From Alphaproteobacteria bacterium (lineage in GTDB: Bacteria > Pseudomonadota > Alphaproteobacteria > Reyranellales > Reyranellaceae): a stretch of DNA of 40,194 nucleotides. Location: positions 1-40,194 of the forward strand of contig JAFAZJ010000084.1 in the NCBI GenBank assembly GCA_019239835.1. Reading direction: 5' to 3'. Positions 17,189 to 24,562 of the stretch are shown in pieces. The notes beneath the pieces were generated by a model. That model did no database searches, was not told where the DNA came from, and saw only the letters and a list, made by a program, of their open reading frames with translations. Position 1 is the stretch's first letter, and each line of letters opens with the position of its first letter. The position numbers were made by a program, and so were the translations under genes.

Positions 17189-17214
17189 CCGTTGACTCCG
17201 CGACGCGGTGTCCT

Positions 17215-17559
17215 ATGCTCGAAAGCATGAAGCTCGACGATGCCGCTGCCCGGCTGGAAGCGCTGGGCAACCCCACCCGCTTGAAGATCTTTCGTACCTT
17301 GGTGCGCGCCGGCGCCGAAGGCATGGCCGTCGGCAAGCTGCAGGACCGGCTCGACATCGCAGCCTCGACGCTCTCGCATCACCTCAAGGCGCTGCTCACC
17401 GTCGGGCTGCTGAGCCAGACGCGCGAAGGCACGACGCTGATCTGCCGTGCCGACTACGACGTGATGCGAGGCCTGGTCGATTATCTGGTCGAGCAATGCT
17501 GCGCGGAAGGTACGTCGGTGTCGGCTTGCGCGCTGGTATCCAGAACGAGGGCTGCATGA
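17215..17559 (+). CDS. arsR: ArsR-family arsenic-responsive repressor
   Basis: 114 residues from the ATG at 17215 (110 from 17227). A winged helix with the recognition helix ASTLSHHLKAL and the wing LLSQTREGTTLICR. The metal-site cysteines are near the C-terminus (EQCC, then SAC), as in ArsR proteins whose arsenite site is C-terminal rather than in the recognition helix. The stop TGA overlaps the next gene's ATG, so the flavoprotein is co-expressed. It is expected to autoregulate through 17175-17188. Confidence 0.9.
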   Translation: MLESMKLDDAAARLEALGNPTRLKIFRTLVRAGAEGMAVGKLQDRLDIAASTLSHHLKALLTVGLLSQTREGTTLICRADYDVMRGLVDYLVEQCCAEGTSVSACALVSRTRAA

Positions 17560-18854
17560 TGAAGACCATCGCCATCCTGGGTGCCGGTCCGGTTGGCCTC
17601 GCCGCTGCCGCGCATGCGCTGGAGCGCGGGCTTAAACCCGTGGTGTTGGAGCGCGGCCCGGCAGTGGGTCATGCAGTCCGGCAGTGGGGCCACGTGCGCA
17701 TGTTCTCGCCATGGGAATACAACGTCGACAAGGCAGCGGCCCGATTGCTGTCGGCCCGTGGCTGGAACGCGCCCGATGCCAGTGACTATCCCACCGGCGG
17801 AGAATTGGTGGCGCAGTATCTCGAGCCGCTCGCCACGCGTACGGCGCTCAAGGATTACATCCGCACCAACAGCACGGTCACCAGCGTCGGCCGTGCCGGA
17901 TTCGACAAGGTCAAGAGCGCCGGCCGCGACAAAGCTTCTTTCGAGATCCGCTACCAGAACGGCAAGGGACCGGAATCTCTGAAGGCGGACGCGGTGATCG
18001 ACGCGTCAGGCACATGGTTCGCGCCCAATCCGGCCGGCGCCGATGGTCGCGCGGCGATCGGCGAGGAACAGGTCCGTTCACGCCTCGCCTACGGCATGCC
18101 CGACGTGCTCGGCACCGATCGTGCGCGCTACGCCGGCAAGACGGTAGCGGTCGCCGGCGCGGGCCATTCCGCGATCGGCACGCTGATCGATCTCGCGCGA
18201 CTTGCCGAGCAGGCGCCGGGCACGAAGGCTATCTGGCTGCTGCGCGGCAACGACCCCTCGAAGGCCTTCGGCGGCGGCGCCAACGATCAACTTGCGGCGC
18301 GTGGCGCGCTGGGCACGGCGTTCGCCGCCCTCATCGACAGCGGCCGGATTGCTCTGGAGCGTGGCTTTCGGATCGCCGAGCTGAGCGAAATCGACAGCAG
18401 GCTGCGCATCGGTACCGGCGCATCGTGTTGCGCCCGCCAGGTCATCGTCGACACGCTGATCGTGTGTACCGGCTTCCGGCCCGAGCTCGACTTCCTGCGC
18501 GAGCTGCGCCTGTCGCTCGACCCGGCGCTGGAGTGCCCGCCTGAGCTGGCCCCTCTGATCGATCCCAACCTGCATAGCTGTGGCACGGTGCGCCCGCACG
18601 GCGCGCGCGAGCTGCGTCAGCCCGAGCCAGGTTTCTATTTCGCCGGCATGAAGTCCTATGGCCGCGCGCCCACCTTCCTGATGCTTACCGGCTACGAGCA
18701 GGTGCGCTCGATCGTCGCTGAGATCGCCGGCGATCACGACGCGGCGCGCAAGGTCGAGCTGGTGCTGCCGGAGACCGGCGTGTGCAGCGGTCCGGGCCCG
18801 TCGACGCAGGCGAGCGGATGCTGCGCACCCGCGCCGGTGAAGTGCTGCGGTTGA
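17556..18854 (+). CDS. FAD/NAD(P)-binding oxidoreductase of the arsenic operon, Cys-rich tail
   Basis: 432 residues. The FAD Rossmann motif is at residues 9-14 (GAGPVG), then SPWEYNVDKAA. A second Rossmann motif, AVAGAGHSAIG, for NAD(P)H is at about 198-208. CTGFRPELD near residue 305 is the flavin monooxygenase-like C-terminal signature. The last 23 residues hold five cysteines (410, 422, 423, 430, 431) in CC pairs, suggesting binding of trivalent arsenic. Start codons at 17556 and 17559 both fit; the gene overlaps arsR. Flavoproteins of this kind recur next to arsR, arsC and MFS genes, but the reaction of this one is not known to me. Confidence 0.82.
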   Translation: MMKTIAILGAGPVGLAAAAHALERGLKPVVLERGPAVGHAVRQWGHVRMFSPWEYNVDKAAARLLSARGWNAPDASDYPTGGELVAQYLEPLATRTALKDYIRTNSTVTSVGRAGFDKVKSAGRDKASFEIRYQNGKGPESLKADAVIDASGTWFAPNPAGADGRAAIGEEQVRSRLAYGMPDVLGTDRARYAGKTVAVAGAGHSAIGTLIDLARLAEQAPGTKAIWLLRGNDPSKAFGGGANDQLAARGALGTAFAALIDSGRIALERGFRIAELSEIDSRLRIGTGASCCARQVIVDTLIVCTGFRPELDFLRELRLSLDPALECPPELAPLIDPNLHSCGTVRPHGARELRQPEPGFYFAGMKSYGRAPTFLMLTGYEQVRSIVAEIAGDHDAARKVELVLPETGVCSGPGPSTQASGCCAPAPVKCCG

Positions 18855-18980: not shown

Positions 18981-20207
18981 ATGTCTCCCTCCCCCGCCCG
19001 CATGGTCGCGATCGTCTGCGCGGCGCAAGTGCTGGTGCAGATCGGCGCCTATTTCTGGCCGGCGCTCCTGCCGCAGATGATGACGCGCTGGTCGCTCAGC
19101 AACAGCGAGGCGGGCTGGATCACGTCGGCGTTCTATGCCGCCTACATGGTCTCGGTGCCCGTGCTGGTGACCTTGACCGACCGCATCGATGCCAAGCGCG
19201 TCTATCTCTTCGGCGTCGCCTGCACTATCGCAGGCCATCTGCTGTTCGGGCTGCTGGCCGAGGGCTTCTGGTCGGCGCTGGCGTTGCGGGCGCTGGCCGG
19301 CATGGGCTGGGCCGGCACCTACATGACCGGGCTGAAGCTGCTGGCCGACCAGGTCGACGCCAAGATGATGTCGCGCGCCGTCACCGGCCACGCCGCCAGC
19401 ATCGGCGTGTCGGGCGCGCTCTCCTTTCTGCTCGGCGACCTCATCGCGCTTCAGTTCGGCTGGCGCGCCGCGTTCATCGTCGCCGGCAGCACGGCGGCGA
19501 TCGCCTGGCTCGCGGTCGCGACGCTGGTGCCCGGCCGCGCACCGCCGCCGAGCCCGTTGGCGGCCAGGCCGGCGTTGTTCGACTTCCGCCCGGTGCTGCG
19601 CAATCGCTCGGCCATGGCCTATGCCCTGGCCTATTGCGTGCACACGCTGGAAATGAATGCGTTGCGCGGCTGGGGAGTGGCCTTCCTCGCCTGGGTCTCC
19701 GCCTTCACCGGCGCGGCGGCGCAGATGATCTCGCCCACCGTCGTGGTTACCGCGCTGGCCTTGCTGGGGACCACGTCGAGCGTGATCGGCAACGAGGCCT
19801 CGATCCGCTTCGGCCGTCGCCGTCTCGTCTCGGCTGCCATGCTGCTGTCGATCGTCTTCGCCGCCGGTCTCGGCTTCCTGGGATCGCTGGGCTACTGGAT
19901 CGCCGTGGCGCTGCTGCTGGTCTACGGCGTGGTGATCTGGCTCGACTCCTCATCGCTCACCGCCGGCGCGGCGGGCACGGCGGAACCATCGCGGCGCGGC
20001 GCCACGCTGGCGGTGCATTCGATGCTGGGTTATGGCGGCGGCTTCGTCGGCCCGCTGGCGATCGGCTGGACGCTCGACATTTGCGGCGGCATGTCGCCCA
20101 TGGCCTGGGGCCTCGCCTTCCTCGTCGTCGCCGTGCTGATGGCGGCCGCGCTGGCGATCTTCACCGCCATCCGCCCGCGCGAGCTGGCGGGCGATCGTGG
20201 CGGCTGA
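18981..20207 (+). CDS. MFS transporter, probable arsenic-module efflux (408 aa)
   Basis: Twelve membrane segments. The loop 2-3 region is TLTDRIDAKRVYLFG, and the large cytoplasmic loop is PGRAPPPSPLAARPALFDFRPVLRN. It follows the flavoprotein on the same strand, with the repeat between. In comparable arsenic loci an MFS gene of this position is taken to export arsenite or an arsenic product; that is inference here. The stop is directly adjacent to the stop of the convergent receiver gene. Confidence 0.85.
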   Translation: MSPSPARMVAIVCAAQVLVQIGAYFWPALLPQMMTRWSLSNSEAGWITSAFYAAYMVSVPVLVTLTDRIDAKRVYLFGVACTIAGHLLFGLLAEGFWSALALRALAGMGWAGTYMTGLKLLADQVDAKMMSRAVTGHAASIGVSGALSFLLGDLIALQFGWRAAFIVAGSTAAIAWLAVATLVPGRAPPPSPLAARPALFDFRPVLRNRSAMAYALAYCVHTLEMNALRGWGVAFLAWVSAFTGAAAQMISPTVVVTALALLGTTSSVIGNEASIRFGRRRLVSAAMLLSIVFAAGLGFLGSLGYWIAVALLLVYGVVIWLDSSSLTAGAAGTAEPSRRGATLAVHSMLGYGGGFVGPLAIGWTLDICGGMSPMAWGLAFLVVAVLMAAALAIFTAIRPRELAGDRGG

Positions 20208-20693
20208 TCAGCCGCCGCTGCGCTGGCCCAGCGCGCCGAGCACCGCCTTGATGTTGGCGGCGAGATCGTCGTAGCCGTAGGGTTTGTTGAGCAGCGGCGA
20301 GTCGCACAAATTGCGCATGGAGTCGGTCATGCGCATCACGCCCGACGTCAGGATGATGCGGATGTCGCGGAAGTGCTCGCGTACCCAGCGGGCGAGGTCG
20401 AGGCCGTTGATGCCCGCGCCGAGATCGACGTCGGAGAACAGGATCTCCACCAACTCGCCGGCGCGCAGGATGGCCTGCGCTTCCTCGCCCGTCTTGGCCT
20501 CGAGCACGCGGTAGCCGCAATGGCGCAGGTAGTCGGCCACGGCCATGCGCACGAGGACCTCGTCCTCGACCACCAGCACCGTCGATGGCGCGGGATGGCC
20601 GTTGCCTTTCTTCTCGGAATTGCCAGCTACGGGCCCGTCGGATCCGTTCCCACGTTCGGGCATCGCCCAAACGAGCGACAACGCGGTACGCAT
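20208..20693 (-). CDS. Stand-alone response regulator receiver (161 aa)
   Basis: The start at 20693 has a strong ribosome-binding site (GGGGAGGAG, 6 bases before ATG) and gives a 36-residue hydrophilic N-terminal extension. The receiver domain has VVEDE, Asp88 in ILFSDVDLGAGINGLDL, the TSG motif and Lys137 in LLNKPYG. The LGxGINGxxLA signature is shared with the receiver at 36019, so they are paralogues. It lacks a sigma-like domain, so it is not PhyR. It is preceded by one of the three exact GGAAC-type stress promoters. Confidence 0.92.
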   Translation of the reverse strand: MRTALSLVWAMPERGNGSDGPVAGNSEKKGNGHPAPSTVLVVEDEVLVRMAVADYLRHCGYRVLEAKTGEEAQAILRAGELVEILFSDVDLGAGINGLDLARWVREHFRDIRIILTSGVMRMTDSMRNLCDSPLLNKPYGYDDLAANIKAVLGALGQRSGG

Positions 20694-20724: not shown

Positions 20725-20749
20725 AACGCTGACGTCCGTTGCCGGTTCC
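20725..20749 (-). promoter_or_regulatory. EcfG promoter, GGAAC-N16-CGTT
   Basis: The -35 GGAAC is at 20749-20745 and the -10 CGTT at 20728-20725 on the minus strand, exact consensus, 31 bases before the ATG at 20693. Confidence 0.78.
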
Positions 20750-20776: not shown

Positions 20777-21244
20777 ATGATGAAGTCGCTCGCCTGTTCG
20801 CTTCTCGCCGTGCTCATGGCCGGCCCCGCCTTTGCCGATCCGGGACACAAGCACAGCGCCGAGACCGCCTGGGGCATGCCGGGTGATCCGGCCAAGCCGG
20901 CGCGTGTGGTGCAGGTCGTCATGCGCGAAATCGACGGTCGCATGCTGTTCGTGCCCGACCGCCTGGAGATCCGCAGGGGCGAGCAGGTTCGTTTCCAGCT
21001 GCGCAACAACGGCGAGATCGACCACGAATTCGTGCTCGCCACGCTGGAGGAGAATCTTCGCCACGGCGAAGCGATGAAGCAGCATCCCGATATGGCGCAC
21101 GAAGACCCCAACGCGCGACGCCTGAAGCCGAAAGCGACAGCCACGCTGGTCTGGCAGTTCACCCAGGCCGGCACGTTCGATTTCTCGTGCCTGATCCCCG
21201 GCCATCGCGAGGCCGGCATGACCGGCACCATCGTCGTGCGCTGA
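20777..21244 (+). CDS. Periplasmic cupredoxin (155 aa)
   Basis: A Sec signal peptide (about residues 1-20, AFA-D) precedes one cupredoxin domain with all four type 1 copper ligands: His83 (DHEF), Cys138, His143 and Met148 in SCLIPGHREAGM. The mature N-terminus DPGHKH may also bind metal. Proteins of this type carry electrons or buffer copper in the periplasm and often accompany metal-resistance genes. An ATG at 20780 is equally possible. It is divergent from the receiver gene and lies next to the arsenic module. Confidence 0.88.
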   Translation: MMKSLACSLLAVLMAGPAFADPGHKHSAETAWGMPGDPAKPARVVQVVMREIDGRMLFVPDRLEIRRGEQVRFQLRNNGEIDHEFVLATLEENLRHGEAMKQHPDMAHEDPNARRLKPKATATLVWQFTQAGTFDFSCLIPGHREAGMTGTIVVR

Positions 21245-21266: not shown

Positions 21267-21291
21267 GCAACGCGTATGCGCCATAAGCGTT
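21267..21291 (+). promoter_or_regulatory. EcfG-like promoter, GCAAC-N16-CGTT
   Basis: The -35 is at 21267-21271 and the -10 at 21288-21291. Only 11 bases separate the -10 from the ATG at 21303, so the message would be almost leaderless. It excludes the ATG at 21276 as the start from this promoter. Confidence 0.6.
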
Positions 21292-21302
21292 GGCGACGGG
21301 CC

Positions 21303-22604
21303 ATGCCGGATGCAATCGAAGACAGCGAAGCTCAAAGCCAAACCGTAGGCTCCAGCAAGCCACGGCTGTTGCAGGTGCTGGGGCCCGGGCTGATCACCGG
21401 CGCATCGGACGACGATCCCAGCGGCATCGCCACCTACAGCCAGGCCGGCGCGCAGTTCGGCTACGGGCTCGGCTGGACGCTGCTGCTCACCTGGCCGCTG
21501 ATGGCGGCAATCCAGATCATCTGCGGCCGGCTGGGCCGCACCACCGGCCACGGCCTCGCCGGCGTGCTGCGCCAGCACTATCCGCGCGCGCTGTTACCGG
21601 CGATCATCGTGCCGCTGTTCATCGCCAATGCCATCAACATCGGCGCCGACCTCGGCGCCATGGCCGATGCCACCAAGCTGGTCGCCGGCGGCTCGGACAT
21701 CGTCTGGCTGATAGGCTTCGGCGCACTCAGCATCGTGCTGCAGGTCTTCATGCAATACGCGCGCTACGTGAAGGTGATGAAGTACCTGACCATCGTGCTG
21801 TTCGCCTATGTCGCGACCCTGTTCATGGTCGACGTCGACTGGCAAGCGGCACTCAAGAGCATCGCCTGGCCGCACGTCACGCTCGACCGCGACACGCTCA
21901 CCACCATCGTCGCCATCCTCGGCACGACGATCAGTCCCTACCTCTTCTTCTGGCAGGCCTCGGAGGAAGCCGAGGACATCCGCGTGCTGCCGCGCCGCGA
22001 GCCGCTCAAGCGCGCGCCCGCACAGGCGCCGGCGGCGCTCGAGCGCATTCGCCTCGATACCATCGTCGGCATGGGCTTCTCCAACGTCATCGCCCTTTGC
22101 ATTCTCATCACCGCGGCCGCCGCGCTGCACGGCCGCGTCGAGACCATCGAGACATCCGCGCAGGCGGCCGAGGCGCTCAAGCCGGTAGCCGGCCGATACG
22201 CCGAGCTGGTCTTCGCCTTGGGCATCATCGGCACCGGCCTGCTGGCGATTCCCGTGCTGGCAGGATCTGCGGCCTATGCGATTGGCGAGGCACAGCGCTG
22301 GCGCGTCGGCCTCGCGCGCCAGCCCAGCGAGGCGAGAGCGTTCTACGCCACGATCGCGATCGCTACGGCGCTGGGCGTGGCGCTGAACTTCACGCCGATC
22401 AACCCGATGAAGGCGCTGTACTGGAGCGCGGTGATCAACGGCGTGGTCGCCGTGCCGGTCATGGTGATCCTGATGCTGGCCAGCCGCCGCCGCGCGATCA
22501 TGGGCGACTTCACCGTGAAGGGCGCGCTGCTGTGGCTCGGCTGGCTCTCGTGCCTGGCGATGGCGGCCGCCGTGGTGGCGATGCTGGCGACGATGGTGAC
22601 GTGA
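21303..22604 (+). CDS. Nramp-family-like transporter with altered metal site (433 aa)
   Basis: About eleven membrane helices with the Nramp opening PRLLQVLGPGLITGASDDDPSGIATYSQAG. The canonical first-helix motif DPGN is DPSG here (residues 38-41). The helix-6 motif expected as MPH reads SPY (211-213, TTISPYLFFWQASEEAED). The metal-binding Asn and Met of Mn/Fe transporters are therefore missing, as in divergent Nramp-related proteins that move other ions. Substrate unknown. The start at 21303 is chosen because the promoter overlaps the alternative at 21276. The start of helix 1 is intact, so no truncation is seen. Confidence 0.85.
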   Translation: MPDAIEDSEAQSQTVGSSKPRLLQVLGPGLITGASDDDPSGIATYSQAGAQFGYGLGWTLLLTWPLMAAIQIICGRLGRTTGHGLAGVLRQHYPRALLPAIIVPLFIANAINIGADLGAMADATKLVAGGSDIVWLIGFGALSIVLQVFMQYARYVKVMKYLTIVLFAYVATLFMVDVDWQAALKSIAWPHVTLDRDTLTTIVAILGTTISPYLFFWQASEEAEDIRVLPRREPLKRAPAQAPAALERIRLDTIVGMGFSNVIALCILITAAAALHGRVETIETSAQAAEALKPVAGRYAELVFALGIIGTGLLAIPVLAGSAAYAIGEAQRWRVGLARQPSEARAFYATIAIATALGVALNFTPINPMKALYWSAVINGVVAVPVMVILMLASRRRAIMGDFTVKGALLWLGWLSCLAMAAAVVAMLATMVT

Positions 22605-22622: not shown

Positions 22623-22889
22623 TCAGGCGCGCCGGCGCGCCTTGTGCTGGGCGGCGCGATGCGCCTGGGCCTCGCGGCGCTGCACGGTTGCGGCGATCAG
22701 CTCGCGATCGCGGATGAAGCGGCGCTGGATCAGCGCGCTGTTGGCCAGCAGGCGTTCGGCCTGCTCGGTGGGCTTGCCCAGCCGCTGCAGGGTCGCCAGC
22801 ACGCGGCGCTGCATGTCGATGGCGCGCTCGCCCTGCGCGATCTGTCGGTCGATCGCCTCGAGCTGCTCGGGTCCGAAGTCGCCTTTCAT
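22623..22889 (-). CDS. Small helical hypothetical protein (88 aa)
   Basis: Not recognised. Almost entirely helical and charged (QLEAIDRQIAQGERAIDMQ, then QAERLLANSALIQRRFIRDR), with a basic tail KARRRA; a coiled coil is likely. A GCAAC-N16-CGTT promoter ends 8 bases before the ATG at 22889, so either the message is nearly leaderless or translation starts at the downstream Met (22814). It converges on the Nramp-like gene. Confidence 0.62.
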   Translation of the reverse strand: MKGDFGPEQLEAIDRQIAQGERAIDMQRRVLATLQRLGKPTEQAERLLANSALIQRRFIRDRELIAATVQRREAQAHRAAQHKARRRA

Positions 22890-22897
22890 GCTCCTGC

Positions 22898-22922
22898 AAC
22901 GGCCCCAACGGGGGTTTGTTGC
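22898..22922 (-). promoter_or_regulatory. EcfG-like promoter, GCAAC-N16-CGTT
   Basis: The -35 is at 22922-22918 and the -10 at 22901-22898 on the minus strand, 8 bases before the ATG at 22889. Confidence 0.58.
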
Positions 22923-24065: not shown

Positions 24066-24090
24066 GGAACGAGTCCGCCTTTCCCGCGTT
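24066..24090 (+). promoter_or_regulatory. EcfG promoter, GGAAC-N16-CGTT
   Basis: The -35 GGAAC is at 24066-24070 and the -10 CGTT at 24087-24090, exact consensus, 37 bases before the ATG of the STAS-like gene at 24128. Confidence 0.8.
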
Positions 24091-24127: not shown

Positions 24128-24562
24128 ATGCTCACGGTGCTCTTCGATGCCCGTCATCAAGTCATCCTGGTTCGCTACGCCGGCATGTTTACAGGCGACG
24201 ATCTCAGCGAACTCGACCTGATGGCGCGGGCGTTCGTCGAGCAGCAGTCGCCGGCGGCCAGCATCGTCGATCTCAGTCAGATCTGCCGGGTCCACGTGCC
24301 AACCCAGTGCGTGGTCGCGCTGGCCTGTCGGCCACCGGTCATGCTGGACGCCATGCGCGTCTACGTGGTGGCCGCCGGCGAGCCGTTCGGCCTGGTCAGG
24401 CTCTATGCCACCCATCAGGAGCTGGCCGGCTTCACGCCGCCGAAGATCGTGCGCACGATGGCCGAGGCGCAGCATCTCCTGCACATCGAGGATCCGCATT
24501 TCGAGCCGCTGCGCCGGATTGGTCCCGGATCGCTCACAGCCCTCGACGGAACACTGCCCTGA
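24128..24562 (+). CDS. STAS/SpoIIAA-like protein (144 aa)
   Basis: Begins MLTVLFDARHQVILVRYAGMFTGDDL, the strand-turn-strand-helix opening of this class, then ASIVDLSQIC as the core strand, MRVYVVAAGEP and FGLVRLYA strands, and a helix (EAQHLLHI). It is the longest of the three STAS-like proteins in the window and the only one with its own exact EcfG promoter. A signalling role is inferred from the fold class, promoter and kinase neighbourhood. Confidence 0.72.
   Translation: MLTVLFDARHQVILVRYAGMFTGDDLSELDLMARAFVEQQSPAASIVDLSQICRVHVPTQCVVALACRPPVMLDAMRVYVVAAGEPFGLVRLYATHQELAGFTPPKIVRTMAEAQHLLHIEDPHFEPLRRIGPGSLTALDGTLP

Follow-up and report, generated by a model that had tools for sequence, protein, structure and literature searches.

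The 40,194-nt stretch of DNA analysed here (the window) carries a gene for an Nramp-related transporter whose product belongs to a clade of its own beside the NRMT magnesium transporters, lacks the Asn and Met of the canonical metal site and is predicted to adopt the Nramp fold. The gene is preceded by an EcfG-type promoter motif that is enriched before its relatives in the window's family. From these features we infer an importer of the LeuT fold that would bind a hydrated divalent ion, most likely Mg2+ and possibly Mn2+, would move it without proton coupling and would be expressed from an EcfG-type stress promoter; the chances that this explanation holds as a whole are judged to be about even.

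The product of the open frame (Table 1) matches PF01566 (Nramp) over nearly the entire profile, with E 1.6e-85 and 287.7 bits against a cut-off of 29.8. Its scores fall far below the cut-offs of the NCBIfam models for MntH (113 bits, cut-off 430) and for the nramp subfamily (52 bits, cut-off 272.5), and the sole NCBIfam model that it passes, narrowly, is NF037982 (50.7 against 50). Comparison with the sequences of solved structures identified the magnesium transporter EleNRMT (PDB 7qia) as the closest relative, with E 1.1e-42, the best DraNramp entry giving E 7.9e-15. It is the one PF01566 gene found in the window's genome, which is 67% complete. Judged from the sequence, the ATG at 21303 is a better start than the 21276 of the longest frame, given that the last base of the promoter-like motif, 21291, lies 11 nt 5' of this ATG and that the DNA similarity to a relative of the same genus begins at 21300. 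Residues are numbered from ATG 21303 throughout; numbering from 21276 runs nine residues higher.

Table 1. Features of the transporter gene and of the EcfG-type motifs around it (window coordinates)
Feature	Position	Strand	Basis
Nramp-related transporter gene, 433 aa, start ATG 21303	21303..22604	+	PF01566, tree, AlphaFold2 model
TM1 site DDDPSG (canonical DPGN); two further Asp precede DPSG	21408..21425	+	sequence; TM1 broken here in model
TM3 Asp replacing Glu of canonical Nramps and NRMTs	21648..21650	+	alignment columns
TM6 site TTISPYLFFWQ (canonical ATVMPHNLYLH); both His replaced, by Tyr and Gln	21924..21956	+	SPY in relatives; TM6 broken here in model
TM10 Ala replacing Gln of canonical Nramps, NRMTs and VPY-type rows	22428..22430	+	alignment columns
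EcfG-type promoter motif GCAAC-N16-CGTT, 11 nt 5' of ATG	21267..21291	+	motif scan against published consensus
EcfG-type motif GGAAC-N16-CGTT before response-regulator ORF 20208-20693 (-)	20725..20749	-	motif scan
EcfG-type motif GCAAC-N16-CGTT before 88-aa ORF 22623-22889 (-)	22898..22922	-	motif scan
EcfG-type motif GGAAC-N16-CGTT before ORF 24128-24562 (+)	24066..24090	+	motif scan

The initial annotation held that DPGN is replaced by DPSG and MPH by SPY, with removal of the Asn and the Met that coordinate Mn or Fe, and the relatives of the gene bear this out. Among 70 relatives, which were fetched by protein similarity and not chosen by motif, DPSG (codons 21414-21425) is exact in 60 and SPY (21933-21941) in 67, the position of the Asn being Gly in 64 and that of the Met being Ser in 67. 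Given that both motifs are near-constant, chance or a sequencing slip is excluded; the altered site is a constant feature of a large group and not the oddity of a single gene. The residues concerned are D36-D37-D38-P39-S40-G41 in TM1 and T208-T209-I210-S211-P212-Y213, followed by W217-Q218, in TM6. Alignment with DraNramp, for which the clade set was partly picked by the motif itself, indicates that the metal Asp D56 of TM1 is kept and N59 becomes Gly, that A227, M230, H232 and H237 of TM6 become Thr, Ser, Tyr and Gln, and that E134 (TM3), Q378 (TM10) and R352/R353 become Asp, Ala and Ala/Phe. The positions of the proton path (the TM6 His pair, the TM9 Arg pair and the TM3 Asp/Glu) are occupied by Tyr, Gln, Ala, Phe and Ile, and the only acidic proton-path residues left are the TM1 Asp and the residue at the TM3 Glu position. 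The same 70 relatives keep the metal-binding TM1 Asp in 67 cases; at the TM3 position they have Asp (63), Asn (5) or a gap (2), where Glu is found in 49/49 canonical and 6/6 NRMT rows, and at the TM10 position Ala (55), Ser (10), Gly (1) or a gap (4), where Gln is found in 49/49 canonical, 6/6 NRMT and 4/4 VPY-type rows. In TM6 the Tyr, the Trp and the Gln each occur in 69 of them, with one gap, a figure to be read with the fact that WQASEEAE was among the peptide search words, so that conservation nearby may be overstated.

Further site types were seen at and beyond the edge of the clade. A clade-edge member (L161, genome G244) reads DDDPSAIGTYA for DPSG and SAY for SPY, has a divergent TM3 and may be a further variant of the site. 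Within the window's class, two PF01566 loci (L167, L170) have LEVGSMATAA and GASISPYLF, without the TM1 Asp-Pro motif, and four others (L165, L166, L168, L169) have DTDAGS and AVIMPW, in which the Met is kept and Trp stands for His.

Phylogenetic placement against the NRAMP-related transporters, the check that had been proposed, puts the product outside canonical MntH and next to the magnesium transporters. In a tree of 51 rows built by maximum likelihood (LG+C20+F+G4, ultrafast bootstrap/SH-aLRT), from which 14 prefixes of rows that were distant, partial or on long branches had been omitted, the window protein lies in a clade of 25 rows that is supported at 100/100 and set on a long stem (1.04 changes per column). 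Its sister group comprises 11 NRMT-type rows, among them EleNRMT, the sole named NRMT in the tree, with joint support of 100/99; the NRMT-type rows alone have 90/87, so that the exclusion of the window protein from the EleNRMT clade is of moderate strength. Canonical Slc11 (11 rows) forms a separate clade (100/100), as does the VPY-type group of four rows that served as outgroup (100/98), and an earlier tree of 65 rows agrees with this arrangement. A canonical MntH identity is excluded by both trees together with the DPSG and SPY motifs. By record titles, the clade spans Alpha-, Beta- and Gammaproteobacteria, Nitrososphaerota (ammonia-oxidising archaea), Patescibacteria, Armatimonadota, Acidobacteria and others. 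Of 385 genomes drawn evenly from the window's class, 27 carry a member, as do 56 of 76 from the window's order, and the orthologue from the same genus is 75% identical to the window protein.

The AlphaFold2 model, built with 42 clade sequences (pLDDT 90.4, pTM 0.89), shows the Nramp fold; TM1 and TM6 are interrupted at the two motifs, between residues 35 and 39 and between 209 and 212 respectively. The top Foldseek match is EleNRMT (E 1.5e-18, TM 0.82/0.88). With VIA-align, the DraNramp and EleNRMT entries score alike (Z 46.9 to 45.8, rmsd 2.5-3.0 over 379-395 residues) and, given that the two lie within about 1 Z, the fold alone is no basis for choosing between them.

Several groups of PF01566 without canonical features have been described: the NRMTs (PMC4072509, PMC8806188), the orphan outgroup (PMC9606685, PMC10606218) and the YcsG/MntG/PxpT type (PMC10448178, PMC13274462). 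The window protein resembles the NRMTs in its sister position, in its best sequence and structure matches, in the DxxG signature on TM1 (PMC8806188), here DPSG, in the Thr at the first TM6 site position and in the lack of the His pair and of the TM9 Arg pair. It differs from them in that it lies outside the EleNRMT clade, with the moderate exclusion noted above, in that its TM6 signature is TxxS (TTIS) and not the published TxxA/T (PMC8806188), in that TM1 reads DDDP for the ND-A of NRMTs, and in having Tyr for Trp after the Pro, Asp for Glu on TM3 and Ala for Gln on TM10. With canonical Slc11/MntH (clades A, B and C) it shares PF01566, the LeuT fold and the TM1 Asp, but DPGN and MPH are replaced, the His and TM9 Arg pairs are missing and the clades are separate (100/100). 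The VPY-type rows (L186, L188, L190, L199) share PF01566 and the Thr and Tyr at equivalent TM6 positions; they differ in that Gly replaces the TM1 Asp, Val stands where Met would be, the second His position is occupied by His and the rows form a clade of their own (100/98). By their motif letters, these rows appear to correspond to the published orphan outgroup and the MntG/PxpT type.

In a 2026 preprint, whose tree comprises 36,700 sequences, several Nramp-related groups are described as lacking DPGN/MPH, and many of them have Glu or Asp at the TM3 position; the preprint places characterised or hypothesised members only in the NRMT-like and MntG groups and calls all the others entirely uncharacterised (PMC12873925). 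The window's clade is probably one of the groups in this preprint, of which the accessible portion mentions no promoter or stress link (PMC12873925). The evolution of ion choice and of proton coupling in the Nramps is read from such non-canonical groups, and a site that is different, yet constant across bacteria and archaea, offers a direct test of the residues that set the choice between Mg2+ and Mn2+.

The following mechanism is suggested. D38, one of the Asp residues of TM1, would still contact the ion, the exchange of Asn for Gly and of Met for Ser would widen the site, and the two extra Asp of TM1 together with the Asp of TM3 would add charge to it. A largely hydrated divalent ion, most likely Mg2+ and possibly also Mn2+, would be held through its water shell and taken up down its electrochemical gradient. 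Given that both TM6 His and the TM9 Arg pair are missing, it is proposed that this uptake is uncoupled from protons. The model for such a protein is EleNRMT, which moves Mg2+ and Mn2+ without protons and whose site, made wider by Gly and Ala, accommodates an ion that keeps most of its water shell (PMC8806188); it is the similar widening by Gly and Ser, the more acidic TM1 and the loss of the proton-path residues that suggest a hydrated-ion, uncoupled importer here. The EcfG-type promoter, which would drive the gene in the window's bacterium and in many members of its family, would place it in service during general stress.

It had been argued from the lost Asn and Met, together with the stress-type promoter, that the protein carries a different ion or works by a different mechanism. 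The residues support a different mechanism, namely one without proton coupling, but the argument for a different ion is not sustained: an EcoDMT triple mutant with the NRMT site still moves Mn2+, as does EleNRMT itself (PMC8806188), and the NrmT-type protein of A. capsulatum rescued Mn2+ rather than Mg2+ transport (PMC4072509). By analogy with these proteins, the loss of Asn and Met alone does not exclude Mn2+. The suggested link to aluminium found no support, the plant NRAT chain being a distant match (E 1.2e-8); for transport of aluminium there is nothing beyond shared superfamily membership.

Mg2+ is favoured by the sister position to the EleNRMT group and by two observations on genomes. 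First, 9 of 12 small Patescibacteria-type genomes with a clade gene showed neither CorA nor MgtE (CorA was found in 3/12 and MgtE in 0/12), a count that covers these two families only, has no baseline and was made in genomes that may be incomplete. The nine, of 0.5-1.1 Mb, are those of loci L048, L052, L055, L057, L059, L060, L062, L064 and L071. Second, in Lysobacter (G066) corA adjoins the second clade gene (L127), tail to tail. CorA was also found in the window's own genome and in the four family genomes tested, so that in these the transporter cannot be the only way in for Mg2+. An M-box riboswitch and an MgtE_N partner gene are frequent, though not universal, marks of NRMTs (PMC4072509). 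Unlike those NRMTs, the window gene has no M-box and the window's genome, 67% complete, gave no MgtE_N match; searches against Rfam gave no match in the window and neither an M-box nor another metal riboswitch in 31 clade loci, all hits being tRNAs. Comparison of MgtE_N and clade-gene positions by contig number, in a subset of genomes, placed MgtE_N within about 1 kb of a clade gene in Chelatococcus (G065) only, inside a 518-aa open frame; the NRMT-type gene of an Acidobacteria genome (G067, L109), the positive control, has MgtE_N just upstream. The TxxS signature, the lack of an M-box and the presence of MgtE_N near one clade gene only are counted against the hydrated-Mg2+ importer, as is the rescue of Mn2+, and not Mg2+, by the A. 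capsulatum NrmT (PMC4072509). The wider proposition, that the clade, with its own tri-aspartate site, is a separate class of uncoupled importers of hydrated Mg2+ which provides the main Mg2+ route in some small-genome Patescibacteria and has been drawn into the EcfG general stress response in some Alphaproteobacteria, is rather unlikely; if true, it would link that response to Mg2+ supply.

Given that the NRMT-like proteins above carry Mn2+ (PMC8806188, PMC4072509), it is possible that the ion is unchanged and that the protein is an uncoupled importer of Mn2+, or of Mn2+ and Fe2+, which serves in stress by supplying the Mn2+ that shields enzymes from oxidative damage. The B. subtilis protein YcsG/MntG, another non-canonical member, imports Mn2+ (PMC10448178), and most clade-bearing genomes of the window's family show no canonical MntH. 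However, canonical MntH is also present in many clade-bearing genomes outside the family, the sister group is a Mg2+ transporter and the small Patescibacteria genomes without CorA or MgtE would have to be accounted for, so that a Mn2+ importer is a tentative alternative, on the unlikely side. A non-metal substrate such as a small organic solute, or a role as a sensor, is very improbable. Non-canonical Nramp relatives may indeed differ in substrate: the fold is common to amino-acid transporters and C. glutamicum requires PxpT, which shares 50% identity with YcsG, to use 5-oxoproline (PMC13274462). Nevertheless, the metal-binding Asp is kept throughout nearly all of the clade, whereas it is Gly in 4/4 VPY-type rows, the sister group binds Mg2+ and Mn2+, and no catabolic partner gene recurs beside the clade.

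The stress-type promoter of the initial annotation, given there without coordinates, is real as a sequence motif, and it recurs in relatives. For EcfG-dependent general-stress promoters the consensus reads GGAAC-N16-CGTT (PMC3892343), and in Sphingopyxis no -35 boxes are more frequent than GGAAC and GCAAC (PMC7083833); the motif of the window gene thus matches the consensus G(G/C)AAC-N16-CGTT of the EcfG (PhyR-NepR) regulons of Alphaproteobacteria (PMC3892343, PMC7083833). In 144 distinct upstream regions of clade genes, with CGTT required 4-30 nt before an in-frame start, the motif occurs in 26 of 44 loci from the family of the window, in 4 of 55 other loci of the class, in 0/16 archaeal and 0/10 other proteobacterial loci and in 1 of the 19 remaining. 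It precedes 0 of 17 canonical mntH genes and 0 of 24 other PF01566 loci, and control genes, called by a codon-score script and not from curated annotation, have it in 2/189 (family), 4/248 (other class) and 1/361 (remaining regions) cases. These figures supersede an earlier count made without the geometry (14/96 loci exact against 0.6% of random windows). Three far-upstream matches (L084, L090, L216) that look like the coding sequence of another gene failed the geometry filter and were rejected.

A coincidence of GC-rich or coding sequence, with the gene lying outside the general stress response, is nevertheless to be considered, given that 9 of the 26 family matches (L254, L267, L274, L098, L100, L278, L260, L265, L096) sit in the C-terminal codons of an upstream phosphodiesterase-like gene. 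Once these are dropped, 17 of 44 loci remain, with variable spacers and CGTT 4-12 nt 5' of the start, against 2/189 family control genes (Fisher p 3e-12, though the loci are related). The few matches outside the family would also fit coincidence, where 4/55 loci (5/56 with L129 of a Phyllobacterium genome) against 4/248 control genes give p 0.012, a modest support for enrichment. Across the window's genome the GGAAC form is not enriched (54 sites against 50 for a reversed control), GCAAC-N16-CGTT is weakly enriched (57 against 41), and in the same-genus genome the latter is clearly enriched (97 against 29). However, of the 57 GCAAC-N16-CGTT sites 11 fall in the window, which makes up 1.1% of the genome's length (p 5e-11), and the same-genus orthologue has GGAAC-N17-CGTT 12 nt 5' of its ATG although the upstream DNA cannot be aligned with that of the window. 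A NepR profile gave no match in the window's 67%-complete genome and one below cut-off in the same-genus genome (G005); it scored above cut-off in six other genomes of the family and, among 14 control genomes, matched in Caulobacter only; on this ground the window's class is taken to be Alphaproteobacteria. Coincidence, which the missing NepR match would also fit, is unlikely, but the failure to find NepR in an incomplete genome and the 4/55 loci outside the family are counted against an EcfG-driven Mg2+ importer. A literature search found no published link of Nramp with EcfG, RpoE2 or the alphaproteobacterial general stress response and no relevant report of DPSG with Nramp, and neither 'Nramp' nor 'manganese' occurs in the main texts of those EcfG regulon papers that were searched. 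The promoter predicts use of the transporter during general stress in one alphaproteobacterial family, which would tie divalent-metal supply to stress survival.

The setting of the gene is dense in such motifs. Positions 1-40194 contain 21 sites of the form G(G/C)AAC-N16/17-CGTT, several directly 5' of ORFs (Table 1), with 11 of GCAAC-N16-CGTT against 0.38 expected and 4 of GGAAC-N16/17-CGTT against 0.37 expected. Window genes include PAS histidine kinases, a HisKA_2 kinase and single response regulators, as well as ExoD, a BrkB-type membrane protein, an aquaporin-family protein and a cupredoxin; YflT-like matches were weak and below cut-off. The window thus looks like a general-stress island, and a 17-kb stretch around the same-genus orthologue is similarly dense, with 11 such sites. 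Across the clade, neither neighbour clustering of 99 clade-gene regions nor a Pfam scan of 112 ORFs adjoining clade genes (out of 140 listed, the rest, including the window's own two, having been omitted by hand) revealed a common partner gene. CBS domains (7/112) and universal stress proteins (2/112) recur among these ORFs, and there are lineage-specific neighbours such as the Cys-tRNA synthetase beside several Patescibacteria copies.

Two further loci in the window lie 5' of the transporter gene. A cupredoxin-type ORF (20780-21244, PF00127, E 5.7e-9) stands just 5' of it on the same strand and is absent upstream of the same-genus orthologue's gene within the part that aligns. Further away, an FAD/NAD-dependent oxidoreductase frame (17208-18854) with a Cys-rich tail (GCCAPAPVKCCG), taken here to be reminiscent of arsenic-related flavoproteins, is followed by an MFS transporter at 18981-20207.
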